From the NCBI RefSeq assembly GCF_014904745.1, contig NZ_JACZCS010000001.1, positions 186,001 through 250,000 on the forward strand: a stretch of 64,000 nt of DNA, in the 5' to 3' direction. The DNA comes from Oricola nitratireducens. Lineage in GTDB: Bacteria; Pseudomonadota; Alphaproteobacteria; Rhizobiales; Rhizobiaceae. Position 1 is the first letter of the stretch. Every line of letters starts with the position of its first letter. A program made the position numbers and the translations under genes. The notes under the pieces are model-generated. The model saw only the letters and a list, made by a program, of their open reading frames with translations, was not told the DNA's origin and ran no database searches. Positions 12,713 through 21,827 of this stretch are shown in pieces.

Positions 12713-15118
12713 TCAGCCGCGCAGGACGCCGCCGGCTTTTCCGACATTGTCGACGATCTTCGCCGACAGCGCCTCGAGGTCCTCGTCGGTGAGCGTGCGG
12801 TCGACCGGCTGGATGGAGACTTCCAGCGCGACCGACTTCTTGCCCTCGCCGAGAGAAGCCCCTTCGAAGACGTCGAAGACGTTGACACTGGTGATCAGCT
12901 TCTTGTCGGCGCCGGAGACGGCACGCAGCAGCGCCTGCGCCGTGACATCCTTGTCGACGACGAAGGCATAGTCGCGCCGGAGCATCTGGAAGGGCGAAAT
13001 TTCCAGTACCGGCTTGGTGCGCGTCGCCTTCTTCTTCGGCTCGGGAATGGCGTCGATATAGACCTCGAAACCGCACAGCGCCCCGGAAACGTCGAGGGCT
13101 TCCAGCGTGCGCGGATGGAACTCGCCGAAGGTGCCGAGCACCATTTTCGGGCCGAGCTTGATGACGCCGGAGCGGCCGGGGTGATACCAGCCGGGCGCGC
13201 CGGTCTCGATCTGCAGGTTGGCGACGGGCGCACCGCAGGCTTCGAGCACGGCGATCGCATCGGCCTTGGCATCGAAGACGCCGACCGGCGCACCGTTGCC
13301 GGCCCAGTGACGGCCGCCGCCGGCGAGAGCGGCGGTGCCGCGGCGGATACCGCCGGCAACACGGCGTTGCGCCTCGGGCGTATCGCCCTCATAGGTCGCC
13401 GCGACCTCGAACAGCGCGACATCGCCGATGCCCTGGTCGGCATTGCGCTGGGCAGCGGCGAGCAGGCCCGGCAGCAGCGACGGGCGCATGTCGCTCATGT
13501 CGGCGGCAATCGGGTTGGCGAGTTTCAGCGCGCCGCTGCCGCCGCCGAAGAGTTCGGCATGTTTCGCCGGAATGAAGGACCAGGAGACGGATTCCATCAT
13601 ACCGCGCACGGCGAGCGCGCGCTTGGCGGCACGAGTGCGGATCTGCAGCGTCGTCAGGATCTTCGCATTGACCGCGCCATGGCTCGGCAGCGGCTGCGGG
13701 TCGATGTTGTCCTCGCCGTGGATGCGCATGACTTCCTCGACCAGATCGGCCTTGCCCTCGACGTCGAACATTCGCCAGGACGGCACCGAAACGTCGACCT
13801 CGACGCCGGAGCCCGAGACGCCGAAGCCGAGACGCTTGAGGATCGCGGTCGATTCCTCGGCGGGAACCTCGATGCCGATCAGCCGCTTGACCTCGGAGAA
13901 GGGGAAGGAAATCACCTTCGGCTCGTAGTCCTTGTAGCCGACAATCTCGGGCTCGGTGGGCGTGCCGCCGCAGAAATCGAGCACCATCTGCGTCGCCAGT
14001 TCCATGCCGTCGACCATGAATTGCGGATCGACGCCGCGCTCGAAGCGGTAGCGGGCATCGGTGATGATGCCGAGATCGCGGCCGGTGCGGGCGATGTTCA
14101 TCGGGTTCCACAGGGCGGACTCGATCAACACGTCGGTGGTGTTCTCGTCGCAGCCGGAATGCTCGCCGCCCATGATGCCGGCGATGGATTCGACGCCATT
14201 CGCATCGGCGATCACGCACATCTCCGGCGTCAGCTCGTATTCGCGCTCGTCGAGCGCGAGGACCTTCTCGCCCTCCTTCGCCCGGCGGACCGTCAGATTG
14301 CCGGCGACCTTGCCGGCGTCGAAGACGTGCAGCGGGCGGCCGCGGTCGAAGGTGACGTAGTTGGTGATGTCGACCAGCGCATTGATGGGCCTGAGGCCGA
14401 TGGCGATCAGGCGCTGCTGCAGCCAGGCCGGCGACGCGCCGTTTTTCACGCCCGTCACCATGCGTAGGGCGAAGCCCGGGCAAAGATCCTCGTCCTCGAT
14501 CATCACCTCGATCGGGCATGCGCCCTCGCCGTTGGCCGGCTTCACGTCCGGTGTCTTCAGTGTGCCGAGGCCGGCGGCGGCGAGATCGCGGGCGATGCCC
14601 GACACGCCGGTGCAGTCGGCGCGGTCGGGCGTCAGCCCGATCTCGATGACCGGATCGTCAAGGCCGGCATAGGCGGCGAAGGACGTGCCGACCGGCGCGT
14701 CTTCGGGCAGGTCGATAATGCCGGTATGGGCGTCGGAGATCTGCAGTTCGCGCTCCGAGCACATCATGCCGTGGCTTTCGACGCCGCGGATCTTGCCGAC
14801 AGCGAGCGTCACGTCGATGCCGGGAACATAGGCGCCGGGCGCGGCAAAGGCGCCGATCAGGCCGGCGCGCGCGTTCGGAGCGCCGCAGACGACCTGGATC
14901 GGCTTGCCGTCACCGGTATCGACGGCGAGCACGCGCAGGCGGTCGGCGTCGGGATGCTGTTCGGCGGTGAGGACCCTGGCGATCACGAAGGGCTTGAAGA
15001 CCGCCTTGTCGTCGACGGCCTCGACCTCGAGGCCGATCTGCGTCAGCTTCTCGACGATCTCGTCGAGCGTGGCGTCGGTGTCCAGATGGTCCTTCAACCA
15101 GGAAAGGGTGAATTTCAT
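12713..15118 (-). CDS. pheT: Phenylalanyl-tRNA synthetase, beta subunit
   Basis: The beta chain of the alpha2-beta2 enzyme that charges tRNA-Phe. Domains in order: N-terminal tRNA-binding OB fold (~40-150, with [11 protein letters not shown]), the B3/B4 editing domain (~200-400), the B5 domain (~400-475), the catalytic-like module, and a C-terminal ferredoxin-like anticodon-binding domain (~705-801, beginning [16 protein letters not shown]). The 801-residue length is standard. It starts 13 bases after pheS on the same strand. Confidence 0.98.
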
Positions 15119-15131
15119 CGATCTGTCCTGT

Positions 15132-16220
15132 CTAGCTGCTCAGGCCGCCGAACAAGGTCGGCATGTCGAGCGGGCGGAATCCGTAGTGGGAGAGCCAGCG
15201 CACGTCGGCGTCGAAGAAGGCGCGCAGGTCGGGCATGCCGTATTTCAGCATGGCCAAACGGTCGATGCCGATGCCCCAGGCAAAGCCCTGATACTCGTCG
15301 GGATCGAGGCCGCCGAAGCGCAAGACGTTCGGATGGACCATGCCGCAGCCGAGGATCTCCATCCAGTCGGTGCCCTCGCCGAAGCGCACTTCGCCGGGTT
15401 TCGAGCGGTCGCACTGGATATCGACCTCCATCGACGGCTCGGTGAAGGGGAAGAAGGACGGCCGGAAGCGCATATTGATGTGCTCGACCTCGAAGAAGGC
15501 CTTGCAGAACTCGGTCAGCACCCATTTCAGGTTGGCGACATTGGCGTGGCGGTCGATCACCAGCCCCTCGACCTGATGGAACATCGGCGAGTGGGTCGCG
15601 TCGGAATCCTGGCGGTAGGTCTTGCCCGGAATGATGATGCGGATCGGCGGCTTCTGCGTCTCCATGGTGTGGATCTGCACCGGCGAGGTGTGGGTGCGCA
15701 GAAGCTTGCGCTCGCCGTTCTCGCCGGGCGGGAAGAAGAATGTGTCGTGCATCTCGCGCGCCGGGTGGCCTTCCGGGAAATTCAGCGCGGTGAAGTTGTA
15801 ATAGTCGGTCTCGATATCCGGGCCCTCGGCGATGGAGAAGCCCATGTCGGCGAAGATCGCGGTCAGCTCGTCGGTGACCTGGGTGATCGGGTGGATGCGG
15901 CCGGTCTCGGCCGGCGACGGGCGAACGGGGAGCGTCACGTCGACGGTCTCGGTCGCCAGCCGCGCGTCGATGGCGGCGTCGCGCAGTTCTGCCTTGCGGG
16001 CATTGATCGCCGCCGTCACCCGGTCGCGCAGGCCGTTGATCGCCGGGCCCATGACCTGGCGCTCCTCCTGTGTCATCTTGCCGAGCGTCTTCAACTGCTC
16101 CGACACGGAGCCCTTCTTGCCGATGGCGCCGACGCGCACCGCCTCGATCGCCGCCTCGTCGGCAGCGGCGGCGATGTCGGCCATCAATCCTTGTTCGAGG
16201 CTTTCCAGTTCCTGAAGCAT
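15132..16220 (-). CDS. pheS: Phenylalanyl-tRNA synthetase, alpha subunit
   Basis: The catalytic alpha chain of Phe-tRNA synthetase, a class II enzyme. The N-terminal ~85 residues form the coiled-coil tRNA-binding arm. Class II motif 2 is seen at [14 protein letters not shown], the phenylalanine-site region at [17 protein letters not shown], and motif 3 at [16 protein letters not shown]. Length 362 is normal. Upstream, between rplT and this gene, lies a hairpin-plus-T-run terminator (16275-16312), so expression may be partly separated from the ribosomal protein genes. Confidence 0.98.
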
Positions 16221-16274
16221 GTTCCGTTTCCGGTTTCGTTTGCGGCGTTCCTTAGCGCCGCCATATCAAAGTTC

Positions 16275-16312
16275 AAAGAAAAACCCGCGTCTGGACCGGC
16301 CAGCGCGGGTTT
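16275..16312 (-). terminator. Intrinsic terminator/attenuator between rplT and pheS
   Basis: On the minus strand AACCCGCG ... CGCGGGTT form an eight-base-pair stem (16282-16289 with 16305-16312) directly followed by TTTTTCTTT. It lies in the 120-base gap between the rplT stop and the pheS start. It would end rpmI-rplT transcripts or act as an attenuator for pheST; I see no Phe-rich leader peptide. Confidence 0.8.
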
Positions 16313-16341
16313 CTCATGATTGCGATCGAGAAAGCGCTGAC

Positions 16342-16743
16342 TTAGCGGACAGCGCTTTCAAACGCGTTCGGCGTGGTATCCTTGAGATAGGCGAGGGCTT
16401 CCTTCGCCTTGCCGACCAGCGCCTCGAAGGCCTGCGGCTCGTGGATCGCCATGTCGGACATGACCTTGCGGTCGAGTTCGATGCCGGCCTTGTTGAGACC
16501 GTCGATCAGGCGGCCATAGGTCAGGCCGTGCTCGCGCGCGGCGGCGTTGATACGCTGGATCCACAGCGAGCGGAAATTCCGCTTGCGCACCTTGCGGTCG
16601 CGATAGGCGTACTGCATCGACTTGTCGACAGCCGCCTTGGCGGTGCGGATCGTATTCTTGCGGCGGCCGTAAAAGCCTTCCGCCTTCTTCAGAATTTTCT
16701 TGTGCTTGGCGTGGGCTGTCACGCCGCGTTTTACACGTGCCAT
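16342..16743 (-). CDS. rplT: 50S ribosomal protein L20
   Basis: Starts [18 protein letters not shown] and contains the basic segment [14 protein letters not shown], both diagnostic of L20, an early-assembly 23S rRNA-binding protein. The body [20 protein letters not shown] is typical. The 133-residue length includes a short acidic C-terminal extension seen in alphaproteobacteria. It lies 31 bases downstream of rpmI. In other bacteria L20 represses its own operon by binding leader RNA. Confidence 0.98.
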
Positions 16744-16774
16744 GGGTTAACTCCTTGGTTCCGGTCGTGACGGC

Positions 16775-16975
16775 TCAGCTGCCGTAGGGCATCATTTTCT
16801 TGACGATCTTGGCATCCTGATCCGACAGCACCATGGTGCCGCGCGCATCGCGGATGAACTTGTTGGACCGCTTGATCATGCCATGCTGCTTGCCTGCGGC
16901 GGCAACCTTGACCTTACCTGTGGCCGTGATCTTGAAGCGCTTCTTCACAGAAGACTTCGTCTTCATCTTGGGCAT
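16775..16975 (-). CDS. rpmI: 50S ribosomal protein L35
   Basis: A 66-residue basic protein beginning [17 protein letters not shown] and containing [18 protein letters not shown], diagnostic of L35. The start at 16975 is fixed by GGAGAG seven bases upstream; the longer frame to 17026 lacks any family resemblance. First gene of rpmI-rplT; its promoter and a leader of about 160 bases lie upstream. Confidence 0.97.
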
Positions 16976-17141
16976 TTTGCTCTCCGTTTTTATCTGCGCC
17001 ATCGCGGCTTCTCGAGGTCCGGTCAAAAACCGGTTGCCCGCCTGCCGGACTTGCCGTCGCGGAACTTGCCCTCAAACGATGTACGTTGTTTTGCATTCGG
17101 AACGGACACGGCATGCCCTGCCGGACCGTTCGGGACGCGGC

Positions 17142-17170
17142 TCTATAGACTCGAAGCCCCCCAAATGCAA
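17142..17170 (-). promoter_or_regulatory. Sigma-70-type promoter for rpmI-rplT
   Basis: On the minus strand TTGCAT (-35, 17170-17165) and TATAGA (-10, 17147-17142) are separated by exactly 17 bases and point at rpmI. Transcription would start near 17135, giving a leader of about 160 bases that includes the short hairpin CCGGT-TTTTG-ACCGG. Confidence 0.6.
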
Positions 17171-17204
17171 GCATTCAGGTGCATTGTGAGAGGGCAGACA
17201 CACA

Positions 17205-17831
17205 ATGACCGCCAAGGAACGATTCCTTTCGAACGCCTATTCGGTCAAGACGGATGAAGAAACCCGCGCTTTATACGACAGATGGGCCGAGGTCTATGAC
17301 GAGGAACTGACCGAAAACAGCTACCGTCAGCCGGCGCGATGCGCCGAGGCTCTGCGCATCCTGTGCGATCCGCAGGATTGCGAAGTCCTCGATGTCGGCT
17401 GCGGATCGGGCCTGTCCGGCCTGGCGCTCAGGGCAACCGGATTCGACTTCGTCGACGGTTGCGACTTTTCGCCGGGCATGCTCGCCAAGGCCGAACAGTC
17501 CGGCCATTACCGGCGGCTGTTTGCGACCAATCTCAATGAACCGCCGATGGACGTCGAAGACGCTTCCTATGACGCGGCAACCTGCGTCGGCGTCTTCTCC
17601 TTCGGCCATGTCTCGCCGGATGCGCTCGACGACATATTGCGGGTCGTGAAGCCGGGCGGCGCGCTGGTGATCGGGCTGAACGACCATTTCTACCAGGAAG
17701 GCTCGCTGACGCGGAAACTCGCGGCGCTGGAAAACGCCGGCAAGCTCAGCGTGAAGAGCAGCGAACATGGCGAACACATCCCGGGCACCGGGCTTTCGGG
17801 CTGGGTGATCAGCGCACAGAAGGCGGGCTGA
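17205..17831 (+). CDS. Class I SAM-dependent methyltransferase
   Basis: A 208-residue soluble methyltransferase. The SAM-binding motif I is CEVLDVGCGSGLSGLAL (~61-77); the acidic motif II follows at VDGCDFSPGMLAKA, and motif IV at YDAATCVGVFSFGH. GAGAGGG precedes the ATG. It is transcribed alone, divergent from rpmI, and ends close to the convergent histidine kinase gene. The substrate is unknown; the short form resembles small-molecule methyltransferases. Confidence 0.85.
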   Translation: MTAKERFLSNAYSVKTDEETRALYDRWAEVYDEELTENSYRQPARCAEALRILCDPQDCEVLDVGCGSGLSGLALRATGFDFVDGCDFSPGMLAKAEQSGHYRRLFATNLNEPPMDVEDASYDAATCVGVFSFGHVSPDALDDILRVVKPGGALVIGLNDHFYQEGSLTRKLAALENAGKLSVKSSEHGEHIPGTGLSGWVISAQKAG

Positions 17832-17844
17832 GACCGGTCGCGTC

Positions 17845-19197
17845 TCAGGCGGGGCTGGTCCTGCGGGCCGCCGCGGCGGCCGGCAGGACGATGCGCGCCA
17901 GAAGCCCCCCCTCGGGCGAACGCTCCAGCGCCAGCGACCCGCCATAGGCTTCGGCGATCTCGCGTGAGATCGTCAGGCCGAGACCGGTCTCGCTTTCCGG
18001 ATCGCCGGCATGCACGCCGCGTTCGAGAATCCGCTCCAGATCCTGCGCGGCGATGCCCGGTCCGTCATCCGCGACCTCGATGACGATTTCCGAATGGCGA
18101 CGCCGCGCCGTCAGACGAACCTCGGACTTGGCCCATTTGCGCGCGTTGTCAAGAATATTGCCGAGCGCCTCGGCGAGATCGGCGGTGTCGATCGGCGTCG
18201 CGAGGCCGTCGGCCACGTCGACCTGCCACTTTAGCTTGCGCGAGGCGGGTATCGCCGCAATCACGTTGACCAGCTTGGCGGCGATAACATCGAGGGCGCC
18301 GCCCTCGCTCCGGCCCACGCCCATGCGGGCGCGCTGGAGCTGGCGGTCGGCGCGACGGCGGATCATCGCGACATGTTCGGCGATCGGGCCGCCGGTATCG
18401 GGCGGCAGGGTCTCCGCGACCTGGAGGATCGCGGTGAGCGGCGTTTTCAGGCCGTGGGCGAGATCGGCGGCGCGGGCGCGCGCACGATCCAGCGCCTGTG
18501 CCTTCTCGTCGAGCAGATCATTGATCTCGGCAACCAGCGGCTTGAGCTCGCTCGGGACCTCCGAGCGCAGCTTGTTGGCGGCGCCGGTGCGGACATTCGC
18601 GACCTCGGCCTGGAGCATGGCCAGCGGCCGCAGTCCGACCAGCACCTGCAGGGCCGCCGCCAGCATCAGCAGCAAGGCCGTCAAACCGAGCATGGTGGCG
18701 AGTTCGCGCCGGAAATCGGCCAGGGCCGAATCGATTTCGGCGACAGGGAACGCGGCGAAGAAATCGACCGCGCGCGGGCCATCGGACGCGTCGAAGGACA
18801 AGATGCGGTCGAGCACCAGCATCGGCTCGCCGTCCGGTCCCTCGCCGGTGCGGAACGCGCGGTAGGACGACGGCGCAAGACTGGCAGCTTCGATGGAAGT
18901 ATCCCACAGCGAGCGCGAGCGGAGTTCGACGCCGTCATCGGAGCGAACCTCCCAATAACGGCCGCCAGCGGGCAGGGAAAAGCGGGGATCGGGCGGCGTT
19001 CCGTCGAGCACCGGCGCGCCGCCGGAAAATTCGAGGCCCGCGGCAAGCGTGTCGATCACGGTCGTCATCTCCCGCTCGTACTGGGCGGCGACATAACCGG
19101 AGAAGATCTGCTGCAGGCTGATCCATGTGGCGACGATGCCAAGGGCGATGAAGAAGAAAGCGCCGGCAAACAGGCGGAATTTCAGCGACCCGCTCAC
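17845..19197 (-). CDS. Sensor histidine kinase, PhoQ-like
   Basis: A 450-residue inner-membrane sensor kinase: N-terminal transmembrane helix (~10-30), a periplasmic domain of ~130 residues, a second helix (~165-190), a HAMP-like linker, then the H-box ADLAHGLKTPLTAIL with the phospho-acceptor His. The ATP-binding boxes are DNARKWA (N), DDGPGIA (G1) and TGLGLTISREI (G2). The GLKTPL form of the H-box is shared with PhoQ-type kinases. The GTG start overlaps the regulator's stop (GTGA), so the two are translationally coupled. The ligand is unknown; two acidic exported proteins encoded upstream may modulate it. Confidence 0.92.
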   Translation of the reverse strand: MSGSLKFRLFAGAFFFIALGIVATWISLQQIFSGYVAAQYEREMTTVIDTLAAGLEFSGGAPVLDGTPPDPRFSLPAGGRYWEVRSDDGVELRSRSLWDTSIEAASLAPSSYRAFRTGEGPDGEPMLVLDRILSFDASDGPRAVDFFAAFPVAEIDSALADFRRELATMLGLTALLLMLAAALQVLVGLRPLAMLQAEVANVRTGAANKLRSEVPSELKPLVAEINDLLDEKAQALDRARARAADLAHGLKTPLTAILQVAETLPPDTGGPIAEHVAMIRRRADRQLQRARMGVGRSEGGALDVIAAKLVNVIAAIPASRKLKWQVDVADGLATPIDTADLAEALGNILDNARKWAKSEVRLTARRRHSEIVIEVADDGPGIAAQDLERILERGVHAGDPESETGLGLTISREIAEAYGGSLALERSPEGGLLARIVLPAAAAARRTSPA

Positions 19198-19859
19198 GCT
19201 TCCTCCCCGCCGAGCGTGTATCCGAAGCCCCGCCTCGTCTGGATCGCGTCGGGCGCGGTCTTGCGGCGTATGCGCTTGACCATCGCCTCGACGGCGTTCT
19301 TGGCGGAATCGTCGTCGCGGCCCTGAACGTGACGGGCCAGGTCATAGGCGGAAACGACGGCTTGCGGATCGGCCATCAGCAGGACCACCGCACGGTATTC
19401 CTGCGGCGACAGGTCGACGGGAGCGCCGTCGAACAGGATGACCTTGCGCACCTCGTCGTGCCGGAACCGGCCGACCTCGGCGGGTTGCGCCTGTGCGGGA
19501 GCGCTGCGGCGCAACAGTGCTTTCAGGCGCGCGAGCAGTTCCTCGTTGCGGAACGGCTTCGGCAGGTAATCATCGGCGCCCGCGTCGAACCCGTCGACGC
19601 GCTCCATCCAGGAGCCGCGCGCAGTGAGGATGAGAACGGGAATCATGTTGCCGCTTCGGCGCCAGCGCCGGAGCAGGGTCAGCCCGTCCAGTTCGGGCAG
19701 ACCGAGATCGAGGATGACGGCGTCGTAGCCGCCGAGATCGCCCTTTTCCCATGCTTCGAGGCCGTTGGCGCTGTGATCGACGACATATCCCTCGCGGCTC
19801 AGCGCCTCGATCACATGGCCGGCAATGACCGGATCGTCTTCGGCAAACAATATCCGCAT
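19194..19859 (-). CDS. Response regulator, OmpR/PhoP type
   Basis: A 221-residue transcription factor. The receiver domain has the acidic pair in LFAEDDPVI (residues 8-9), the phospho-acceptor Asp51 in AVILDLGLPELDG, and the conserved Lys in DDYLPKPF. The C-terminal winged helix (~125-215) is of the OmpR type. Start chosen at the ATG 19859, matching the family. It starts four bases after the stop of the PepSY-domain gene and overlaps the kinase gene. It presumably controls envelope genes including its own operon; targets unknown. Confidence 0.92.
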   Translation of the reverse strand: MRILFAEDDPVIAGHVIEALSREGYVVDHSANGLEAWEKGDLGGYDAVILDLGLPELDGLTLLRRWRRSGNMIPVLILTARGSWMERVDGFDAGADDYLPKPFRNEELLARLKALLRRSAPAQAQPAEVGRFRHDEVRKVILFDGAPVDLSPQEYRAVVLLMADPQAVVSAYDLARHVQGRDDDSAKNAVEAMVKRIRRKTAPDAIQTRRGFGYTLGGEEA

Positions 19860-19863
19860 GGCG

Positions 19864-20421
19864 CTACCGGAACAGGGCCCCAAAACCGAGGAAACGGCCG
19901 GATTTCGCATCCATACGGATCGAGCGAACCGAGCCGCGGTCGGTTATGATCTTGAAGCGGTATTCCAGACGCCTTCCCGTCGAACGCAGCGTCACGCCGA
20001 TGACCGATCCACCATAGGATTCCTCGACCCGCTGCAGAGCCACTTTGAGGGGCATCGCTTCGCCGCTCTGGACCGCACGGGCGGCATCGGACTGGTCGAG
20101 CGATCCGCGGTTGAAGTCGCTGTCGTGGTCCGTACCGGACGACGGCTCGCTGTCAGATCCCCCGTCATCGCCACCATCGTCTCCGCCACCGTGGTCGCCG
20201 CCGTGATCCCCGCCACTGCTTTCGCCGCCGGAATCGCTTCCACCGGAATCATGCCCGCCGGACTCGCCGCCGCCATCGGATTCCCCTTCGCCATCATCGG
20301 CGAAGGCATTGCCGGCCGGCATCAGCCAGGATGTCAGGAACATGACGCAAAATACCGCGCCGGAACCCTGCAACAGGCCCCGGCGGGACAAGGCGATTTC
20401 CTCTGCCGATCGCTTTTCCAT
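19864..20421 (-). CDS. Exported Asp/Gly/Ser-rich protein with C-terminal PepSY-like domain
   Basis: A 185-residue protein. The N-terminus has a twin-arginine-like signal (ALSRRGLLQGSG, then a hydrophobic run ending GNAFA-DD). Next comes a low-complexity segment of about 60 residues rich in Gly, Asp, Ser and His. The last ~75 residues (from AARAVQSGEAMPLKVALQ) resemble a PepSY domain, often found in periplasmic inhibitors or beside PhoP/PhoQ-like systems. It starts on the ATG at 20421, although a GTG at 20442 keeps the frame open. It is immediately upstream of the regulator and kinase and is a likely accessory or target of that system. Tat export and metal binding are inference. Confidence 0.72.
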   Translation of the reverse strand: MEKRSAEEIALSRRGLLQGSGAVFCVMFLTSWLMPAGNAFADDGEGESDGGGESGGHDSGGSDSGGESSGGDHGGDHGGGDDGGDDGGSDSEPSSGTDHDSDFNRGSLDQSDAARAVQSGEAMPLKVALQRVEESYGGSVIGVTLRSTGRRLEYRFKIITDRGSVRSIRMDAKSGRFLGFGALFR

Positions 20422-20439
20422 CTCGTGGAAACTACTCCA

Positions 20440-20481
20440 CACACAAAAACAGACAAGAGCGGGCCGAGGCCCGCTCTTGTC
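20440..20481 (-). terminator. Strong hairpin terminator between the two Asp/Gly-rich genes
   Basis: A 14-base-pair perfect stem (20452-20465 with 20468-20481, GACAAGAGCGGGCC and its complement) is followed on the minus strand by TGTTTTTGTG. It lies just downstream of the 128-residue gene and before the PepSY gene, so it should end or reduce read-through into the two-component operon. Confidence 0.75.
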
Positions 20482-20530
20482 GCCGGTATTGCCAGAGGGA
20501 CGCGCGGCAAATACCGGGGGCGGGGGCTCT

Positions 20531-20917
20531 TTATTTCGTAAGCAGATCCATCAGCGTCTTGGGACCGCTGCCGTCACCGGAATCGTGGCCGGCGCCATCG
20601 TCGGACCCGCCACTCGAATGATCGTTGCCGTGGTCATCGCCCGAATCATGATCGCCCGAACCATGATCGCCGGAATCATGCCCGCCGGAATCGTGGTCGC
20701 CGGAATCATGATCGCTTCCGCCGCCATCGTGACCGTCTCCACCACCATCGTGACCGCCTCCGCCGTCGCTCTCGCCCTCATCGGCAAATGCGGCGGACGA
20801 GAACACCTTGGCCCACGACCCGACCTGCGCTTCGTTTCCATGCAGCGGAATGAGCGCGGAAGCGAGGAAATAGGCGAAGGCGCCTGAAAGGATCGTCACG
20901 TTTTTCGTAAGTTTCAT
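20531..20917 (-). CDS. Exported Asp/Gly/His-rich repeat protein
   Basis: A 128-residue protein with an N-terminal signal sequence (MKLTKNV, hydrophobic stretch, cleavage likely after SSAAFA) and then a mature part made almost wholly of short repeats such as GGHDSGDHDSG, ending PKTLMDLLTK. It has the same junction (AFAD-x-GE, GESDGGG) as the PepSY protein next door, so the two look related. The many Asp and His suggest binding of divalent metal or calcium, but this is inference. GGGAGAG eight bases upstream fixes the start. A terminator follows. Not matched to any family I know. Confidence 0.7.
   Translation of the reverse strand: MKLTKNVTILSGAFAYFLASALIPLHGNEAQVGSWAKVFSSAAFADEGESDGGGGHDGGGDGHDGGGSDHDSGDHDSGGHDSGDHGSGDHDSGDDHGNDHSSGGSDDGAGHDSGDGSGPKTLMDLLTK
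20640..20714. repeat. Five tandem 15-base repeats in the Asp/Gly/His-rich gene
   Basis: Five consecutive units close to CCGGAATCATGATCG (starts 20640, 20655, 20670, 20685, 20700) encode five copies of an S/G-G-D-H/H-D pentapeptide on the minus strand. Such arrays can gain or lose units by slippage without breaking frame. Confidence 0.8.
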
Positions 20918-21045
20918 CGTAGTCTCTCCCAAATGATCGGCGGGGTGCGCGATTCATTGACAGGGACAATAGCGATGGCTGCCTGACAGATCGCTGAGTC
21001 CGGTTGTCAGTCTTTTGTCAGGGAAGAGCGGCGGCGAATGCGGGC

Positions 21046-21074
21046 AATAAAAAAGCGGGCATCTCGCCCGCTTT
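21046..21074 (-). terminator. Intrinsic terminator after infC
   Basis: On the minus strand AAAGCGGGC-GAGAT-GCCCGCTTT forms a nine-base-pair stem (21052-21060 with 21066-21074) followed by TTTATTG. It begins about 25 bases past the infC stop. Confidence 0.82.
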
Positions 21075-21098
21075 CAGAAATTCCCAAAGGCGTCCGGC

Positions 21099-21635
21099 TT
21101 AACGCGGGGCCAGCACCATCATCATCTGACGGCCTTCGAGCTTCGGCTCGGCTTCGACCTTGGCGATTTCCTCGGTGTCGAGCTTGACCTTCTGCAGCAG
21201 TTCCATGCCGAGATACTGGTGCGCCATCTCGCGGCCGCGGAAACGCAGCGTGACCTTGACCTTGTCGCCTTCGTCGAAGAATCGGCGCATCGCCTTCATC
21301 TTCACCTCGTAATCATGGGTGTCGATGTTGGGACGCATCTTGATCTCCTTGATCTCGACGGTCTTCTGTTTCTTGCGCGCGGCGGCGGCTTTTTTCTGTT
21401 GTTCGTATTTGAGTTTGCCGAGATCGACGATCTTGCACACGGGCGGCGTGGCATTGGGGACGATCACGACGAGATCCAGACCGGCTTCCTCTGCGATGCG
21501 CAGGGCTTCCTCGGTATCGGTCACGCCGTGGTTCTGGCCCTCGGCGTCGATCAGCTGGATTTGGGGGTCGCGAATGTCGCGGTTGGATGTCGGGCCTGTT
21601 TTTTGAGCCGTGGTGGCTCGGAATGGACGGCGAAT
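21099..21635 (-). CDS. infC: Translation initiation factor IF-3, with an ATT start codon
   Basis: IF-3 binds the 30S subunit and checks start codons. Both domains are visible: the N-domain with [20 protein letters not shown] and the C-domain with [17 protein letters not shown] and [14 protein letters not shown], ending [19 protein letters not shown]. The true start is taken as ATT at 21635 (then [10 protein letters not shown]...), because GGGAGA lies nine bases upstream and the resulting 178 residues match the family; the ATG at 21743 adds a non-homologous tail. A rare AUU start is the known basis of IF-3 self-regulation in E. coli. It is unlinked from rpmI-rplT here. Confidence 0.93.
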
Positions 21636-21827
21636 GGTCGTTGTCTCCCGTGTTGTTTCGGAATCGGTTGCAGTCGAAAGTCCGCGCAATGTCGGGATTT
21701 CGGCCGCCGAGTCAATAGCATGGTCCGAATGAAAAATCACCATCCCGGACCCAAGAGCCTCGCCGGGGCTTCACATTGTCCGCCCGCCCGCGCAAAACAC
21801 ACCCGGCAAGCAACCGAAAGGACCGCC

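Follow-up and report, generated by a model that had tools for sequence, protein, structure and literature searches.

What do two small exported proteins, rich in aspartate, glycine, and histidine, do in front of a two-component system? The question is raised by a locus of Oricola nitratireducens (NCBI RefSeq assembly GCF_014904745.1), which we analyzed in a stretch of 64,000 nucleotides (contig NZ_JACZCS010000001.1, positions 186,001 to 250,000), hereafter the window. The minus strand of this locus reads, in order, infC, a 39-bp box, a first small gene (A), a hairpin, a second small gene (B), a response regulator gene, and a sensor kinase gene. With moderate confidence, and by analogy with described systems, we favor reading A, B, the regulator, and the kinase as an autoregulated, envelope-sensing two-component operon that would work like DbfQRS and FeuN-FeuPQ, with B as its brake and A as its main output. 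The features of the locus are as follows.

21099-21743, minus strand: reading frame of infC (initiation factor 3, IF-3), upstream of the operon; synteny marker.
20983-21021, minus strand: composite box CTGACA-N5-CTGACA-N7-TCA-N6-TGTCAG, 39 bp, 5' of A; presumed operator, probably bound by the regulator; matrix score of at least 31 in 19 of 21 loci.
20531-20917, minus strand: gene A, 128 amino acids; signal-like N terminus and Asp/Gly/His-rich region, without the C-terminal domain common in relatives.
20452-20481, minus strand: hairpin of 13 pairs between A and B, with a T-rich tail; resembles a terminator or attenuator.
19864-20421, minus strand: gene B, 185 amino acids from ATG; twin-arginine signal-like N terminus, Gly/Asp-rich linker, C-terminal PepSY domain.
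20371-20388, minus strand: twin-arginine motif SRRGLL, read in the B protein.
19885-20052, minus strand: PepSY domain of B, PF03413 (Pfam).
19194-19859, minus strand: OmpR/PhoP-type response regulator, 221 amino acids (Pfam and NCBIfam).
17845-19197, minus strand: sensor histidine kinase, 450 amino acids (Pfam and NCBIfam).
18694-19101, minus strand: periplasmic sensor domain of the kinase; modeled with a predicted local distance difference test (pLDDT) of 94.6, nearest solved folds CusS and PhoQ.

The genes are closely packed: B and the regulator gene are 4 nucleotides apart, the regulator and kinase genes overlap by 4 nucleotides, and only the gap between A and B, about 109 nucleotides with the hairpin inside it, is longer. 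Translation of B from a GTG at 20442 would give 192 amino acids instead.

To assess how far this arrangement is shared, we collected relatives: the kinase and B were searched against 199 genomes of the family, the C-terminal domain found in the A proteins of relatives against 394, and plasmid records were searched as well. The B search yielded matches in 45 of the 199 genomes. A quick tree of regulator-kinase pairs, built without bootstrap, places 21 loci, that of the window included, in one clade (Shimodaira-Hasegawa-like approximate likelihood ratio test, 100) within a larger set. B precedes the regulator and kinase in 20 of these 21 loci and is absent only in L083; A is present in 19, being absent in L083 and broken in L084; and 15 have infC upstream. 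Whether A and B are present was judged in part by visual inspection of lists of open reading frames (ORFs) covering about 2.6 to 3.2 kb upstream of the kinase. An initial annotation of this DNA had made its interpretation depend on the pair co-occurring with two-component genes elsewhere, and the pair does so. This operon type is found in two of six genomes covered for the genus. A named orthologue is carried by plasmid pR132501 of R. leguminosarum WSM1325, whose A and B bear the annotation of hypothetical proteins; its grouping with genome G175 in the tree points to Rhizobiaceae as the probable family. No study of the operon was recognized in our literature search. The genome of the window additionally holds a short PepSY-regulator-kinase module (L091) and a regulator-kinase pair with an exported-looking ORF of 84 amino acids upstream (L092). 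We presume the pairs of L092 and L096 to be FeuPQ-like, a provisional name.

Control of the operon is suggested by the box. A matrix was trained on 11 loci, and nine others (L163 to L170 and L178) were held out as tests; eight of the nine reached a score of 31, and L168 has the same elements at a spacing one base shorter. Altogether, the box precedes A, or the place of A, in 19 loci of the clade. The matrix scan detected no box in L083 and none in the two FeuPQ-like loci. Allowing at most one mismatch in the box core, we found 23 sites in 20 of the 199 genomes and no match to a reversed-pattern control. Twenty of the 23 sites adjoin PepSY and/or regulator genes (18 adjoin both within the examined stretch), and the remaining three comprise two without a clear target (L195 and L201) and one before an RTX calcium-repeat gene (G163:C43). 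Short modules also carry the box before their PepSY gene, at a score of at least 15 in 19 of 24. At up to three mismatches, the box marks only this operon and the short module in the genome of the window, and a search of 13 genomes on both strands gave 44 pattern matches and 4 reversed-control matches, one of the latter in the genome of the window. From this placement and specificity we infer that the regulator binds the box; the distribution of the box fits that expected of an autoregulatory site.

Other sites were observed as well. Exact CTGACA-N5-CTGACA matches outside the modules (L114, L118, L121, L122, L124, and L126) have no second half and were excluded from the box count. A further exact match of this kind, again without the second half, lies in the genome of the window (G000:C54:31482, L184), 5' of an exported-looking Ser/Gly-rich protein of 112 amino acids. 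Five of the three-mismatch matches (G084:C14:58518, G163:C14:47096, G128:C126:13364, G146:C1:1870950, and G153:C5:191301) share a different pattern, one that contains TTCA-N7-TTCA, the candidate FeuP motif in the literature (PMC3616915). At L141 (G153) and L180 (Ensifer adhaerens plasmid NZ_CP118612.1), the box stands between a short PepSY module and a divergent second small exported protein together with a cytochrome b-like gene; in L180 this divergent protein is annotated as PepSY, and a gene for a heavy-metal P-type ATPase follows the kinase. At L181 and L182 (G163) and at L183 (G171), RTX calcium-repeat genes immediately follow or adjoin the box of PepSY modules. The three-mismatch search placed a box before a second RTX gene in G163 (C1:88473) and between the PepSY module and the RTX gene in G171. 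RTX-repeat matches number 168 in G163, 20 in G171, and 7 in the genome of the window; given the 168 matches and the reversed-pattern matches at three mismatches, the link between RTX genes and the box is only a hint.

B has the features expected of a DbfQ-like partner: it is a small, exported-type PepSY protein encoded beside the regulator and kinase. PF03413 scores 22 bits on the whole protein and 24.3 bits on the trimmed C terminus (curated cutoff, 24). Among 11 B domains, 10 match PepSY in Pfam at an E value of 1 or better (best, 1.9e-7), and the B profile matches the PepSY chain 9vy3 of the PDB (E, 3.3e-10). By pattern, 15 of 17 B proteins contain a twin-arginine-type motif, and the NCBIfam model for twin-arginine translocation (Tat) gives B 14.4 bits, below its cutoff of 16.7; Tat export of B is therefore at most likely. 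As the initial annotation had stated, PepSY and the twin-arginine motif occur in the second protein of the pair and not in the first.

Between signal and PepSY domain lies a linker, which we tabulated in 17 of the 20 B proteins (all but L164, L165, and L178). Its length (40 to 84 amino acids) and a substantial glycine fraction (0.22 to 0.72) are kept, which fits a flexible tether. Its Asp-plus-Glu fraction ranges from 0.01 to 0.60, its His fraction from 0 to 0.07, and its net charge from -27 to +4; acidic residues make up 1% in the sister species (L075, GGGGS-like and free of His), 4% in L084, and 7% in L167. B thus has no conserved acidic or His-rich stretch, and a composition this variable makes a conserved metal site in the linker unlikely. 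The acidic and His-bearing stretches are best read as a disordered, fast-evolving spacer or polyanion.

In the window itself, A and B are a matched pair, as initially annotated. They share AFAD-x-GE and GESDGGG, and they rank first and second (0.97 and 0.88; third, 0.50) among the 219 window ORFs of at least 100 amino acids for the fraction of Asp, Gly, His, and Ser in a 60-residue stretch. Their tandem units measure 12, 15, or 21 bp, all multiples of three, which fits translated repeats. The shared junction was discarded as a conserved motif because it is not retained in L075, and it instead represents a likeness between two local repeat genes.

In 16 of the 19 A-bearing loci, the A proteins end in a conserved domain of about 68 amino acids, which is missing from the A proteins of the window, L076, and L085. 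A search of 394 family genomes detected the domain in 15, spread over 8 of 109 genera, and did not find it anywhere in the genome of the window; a class-wide match in 1 of 385 genomes (22 residues; E, 2.7e-4) was taken as chance. Compared with L075, the window's A keeps a recognizable signal region (73% over 44 bp; E, 0.003), and the terminator is kept too (81% over 47 bp; E, 1.6e-7); the window's A is thus an orthologue that has lost its C-terminal domain. The domain, aligned from seven sequences (alignment A2), has no convincing match in Pfam, NCBIfam, or the PDB, the NCBIfam and PDB rows being at chance level. Its model (pLDDT, 83.5; predicted template modeling score, 0.65) reached at best a Foldseek E value of 0.076 and a VIA-align Z of 3.6, and this missing fold match does not show a new fold. 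We found no support for the domain being a PepSY (hhalign probability, 4.5%; no Pfam PepSY in the seven members; no clear fold match). The window's own A matches no Pfam or NCBIfam family. Nor does A appear to be an RTX protein, since no A stretch of the 15 inspected contains more than two GGxGxD strings. The net charge of A is negative in all 15 loci counted (of 19; L163 to L166 were left out of the table), down to -25 and as little as -3 in L075 and L167, and A may act as a polyanion.

The hairpin that the initial annotation reported is present; it lies between A and B. A scan for terminator-like sites gave 7 in the region against a shuffle mean of 2.4. In the 10 A-bearing loci tested, of 19, the gap between A and B outscored dinucleotide shuffles at a z of -2.9 or lower in 8. 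The hairpin keeps its position among loci, and its sequences differ. Retention of a hairpin in this gap suggests a higher output of A than of B, the regulator, and the kinase.

The regulator is of the OmpR type. The best NCBIfam model of the kinase is PhoQ, at 117.3 bits against a cutoff of 497 and over residues 173 to 437 only, so that the kinase does not reach the curated PhoQ model. Its sensor domain was modeled from 44 sequences, with the two FeuPQ-like loci left out of the alignment. The first Foldseek row is PhoQ (probability, 0.97; E, 0.056), and VIA-align ranks CusS (Z, 9.8; root mean square deviation [rmsd], 3.9; 121 residues aligned) and PhoQ (Z, 9.2; rmsd, 3.0; 100 aligned) at the top, with an amino-acid chemoreceptor domain close behind (Z, 8.1). 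Because chemoreceptor domains follow so closely, the model indicates a common sensor fold, nearest to CusS and PhoQ, and says little about the ligand. The initial description of the two-component system as PhoQ-like thus may hold for the sensor fold and fails at the level of the curated kinase model. A kinase scan of wider genome contigs returned a single distant kinase, in Saccharibacillus, and nothing else.

These elements can be arranged into a circuit. The PepSY domain of B, on its flexible Gly-rich tether, would hold the periplasmic domain of the kinase toward the phosphatase state. Envelope disturbance, for example by cationic peptides, by damage to the outer membrane, or by shifts in divalent cations, would weaken the contact between B and the kinase, and the phosphorylated regulator would then bind the 39-bp box and drive its own operon. 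The hairpin would make A, the presumed exported output, the main product, and read-through would supply more B, resetting the switch and closing a negative feedback loop.

Several observations weigh against such a circuit. The regulator-kinase pair of L083 stands alone, without A, B, or the box. Among the short modules, the box is oppositely oriented in 16 of the 19 that score at least 15, and 5 of the 24 are without a good box. The gap between A and B does no better than shuffles in L079 and L080 (z, about -1.5), and a T-run follows the stem in only about 6 of the 10 loci. The PepSY score of the window's own B is marginal (22 to 24.3 bits, straddling the cutoff), and B sequences are too divergent among loci for a co-variation test.

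The initial annotation preferred a ligand-buffering metal sensor, in which A and B would bind divalent metal through their Asp/His repeats and metal-loaded or metal-free B would alter the kinase. This interpretation draws on the acidic, His-bearing repeats of the window's A and B, on the uniformly negative charge of A in the 15 loci counted, and, as indirect hints, on the CusS/PhoQ-like sensor fold and the RTX calcium-repeat genes by the box in G163 and G171. In published work, the PepSY protein UipA, which also neighbors a two-component system, is reported in a review to bind uranium and iron (PMC8963506), and BqsS is reported to sense Fe2+ directly (PMC12666569); given these two cases, a metal signal may act at the kinase sensor itself. 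However, the B linker varies from 1 to 60% acidic residues and from 0 to 7% His among 17 relatives, with GGGGS repeats in the sister species, and A carries a charge of only -3 in two loci, which argues against the repeats as a conserved metal site. The RTX link is likewise weak, with 168 RTX matches in G163 and 4 control matches in 13 genomes at three mismatches. We consider the metal sensor unlikely; from the earlier interpretation, the module and its link to the kinase stand, the latter by analogy with DbfQ, and the metal-buffering repeats are weakened. A related proposal, that the switch senses envelope attack and that the exported, acidic, disordered A, together with the B linker, soaks up cationic peptides or other polycations, agrees with A being the first gene behind the box and net negative wherever counted, down to -25. 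It also agrees with the reported responses of FeuQ of S. meliloti to a cationic host peptide (PMC12486126) and of DbfRS to membrane-damaging antimicrobials (PMC12714742). Such a decoy is nonetheless improbable, as the charge of A is only -3 in L075 and L167 and 16 of 19 A proteins bear what looks like a folded domain, superfluous in a simple decoy.

Two further explanations concern the fate of A. The window's A may be a decaying relic whose function resided in the C-terminal domain, leaving a repeat-expanded stub that is kept for now by its place behind the promoter. In its favor, the search found the domain neither in the window's A nor elsewhere in its genome, L076 and L085 are also without it, L083 has no A, and the A of L084 is broken; yet the signal region and terminator remain recognizable against the sister species, and each repeat unit has a length divisible by three. 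We regard decay as a real but doubtful possibility. There is also a small chance that A is a second exported regulator, whose C-terminal domain would compete with or titrate B at the kinase sensor, so that the switch would be tuned by the proportion of A to B that the hairpin sets; the species of the window would have lost the domain, and its A would now be a disordered polyanion under the same operator.

The operon and a plus-strand methyltransferase gene (17205-17831) are flanked by infC on one side and by presumed rpmI-rplT-pheS-pheT genes on the other (12713-21743), which places the module among translation genes. infC probably begins at an ATT (21635, minus strand), where the conserved IF-3 start IRRPF is preceded by GGGAGA; nonstandard ATT start codons are known in infC. 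Rfam and tRNA scans of the window gave no matches, and a sigma-70 promoter scan of 17700-21300 gave no sites.

A report of December 2025 (PMC12714742) described for Vibrio how a small periplasmic PepSY protein controls a kinase. It called such control widespread, with PepSY-kinase neighborhoods in different phyla, some of them having two small proteins ahead of the kinase. DbfQ of Vibrio cholerae is a PepSY protein that binds the DbfS sensor and shifts the kinase to phosphatase activity, and in DbfQ-DbfR-DbfS it is encoded directly before the regulator and kinase, as is B here (PMC12714742). The same source describes PA2658/PA2659 with BqsRS of Pseudomonas aeruginosa, where two small proteins precede the pair, as do A and B. 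The likeness to DbfQ is one of domain and gene order. B differs from these systems in its long Gly-rich linker and twin-arginine motif, the operon differs in its 39-bp box, and A is not detectably a PepSY protein, its relatives bearing a domain for which no family was found.

FeuN-FeuP-FeuQ of Sinorhizobium meliloti likewise pairs a kinase of the same broad family with a small periplasmic negative controller; FeuN reportedly binds and inhibits FeuQ (PMC12486126), and a TTCA-N7-TTCA direct repeat is the candidate FeuP site (PMC3616915). The window's box differs from that motif. Moreover, the window's regulator-kinase pair falls in a different clade from L092 and L096, the pairs we presume to be FeuPQ-like, and L092 is a separate pair in the same genome with its own small exported protein, so the window's pair is probably not a FeuPQ orthologue. 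With PhoPQ it shares an OmpR-type regulator, PhoQ as the best NCBIfam model of the kinase, and a sensor model near PhoQ; it departs from PhoPQ in the low score (117 bits against 497, residues 173 to 437 only) and in its exported partner genes. UipA/UipRS of Microbacterium also places a metal-binding PepSY protein beside a two-component system, but UipA is reported to cross the membrane once and to carry tandem PepSY domains and a charged face (PMC8963506), whereas B has one PepSY domain and no conserved acidic linker. Beyond these known systems, the comparison across relatives speaks against a metal site in the acidic repeats, the operon adds a second exported partner, A, whose relatives carry a domain of no family found, and its box, almost exclusive to PepSY modules, allows the circuit to be tested directly and to be located by a DNA pattern.

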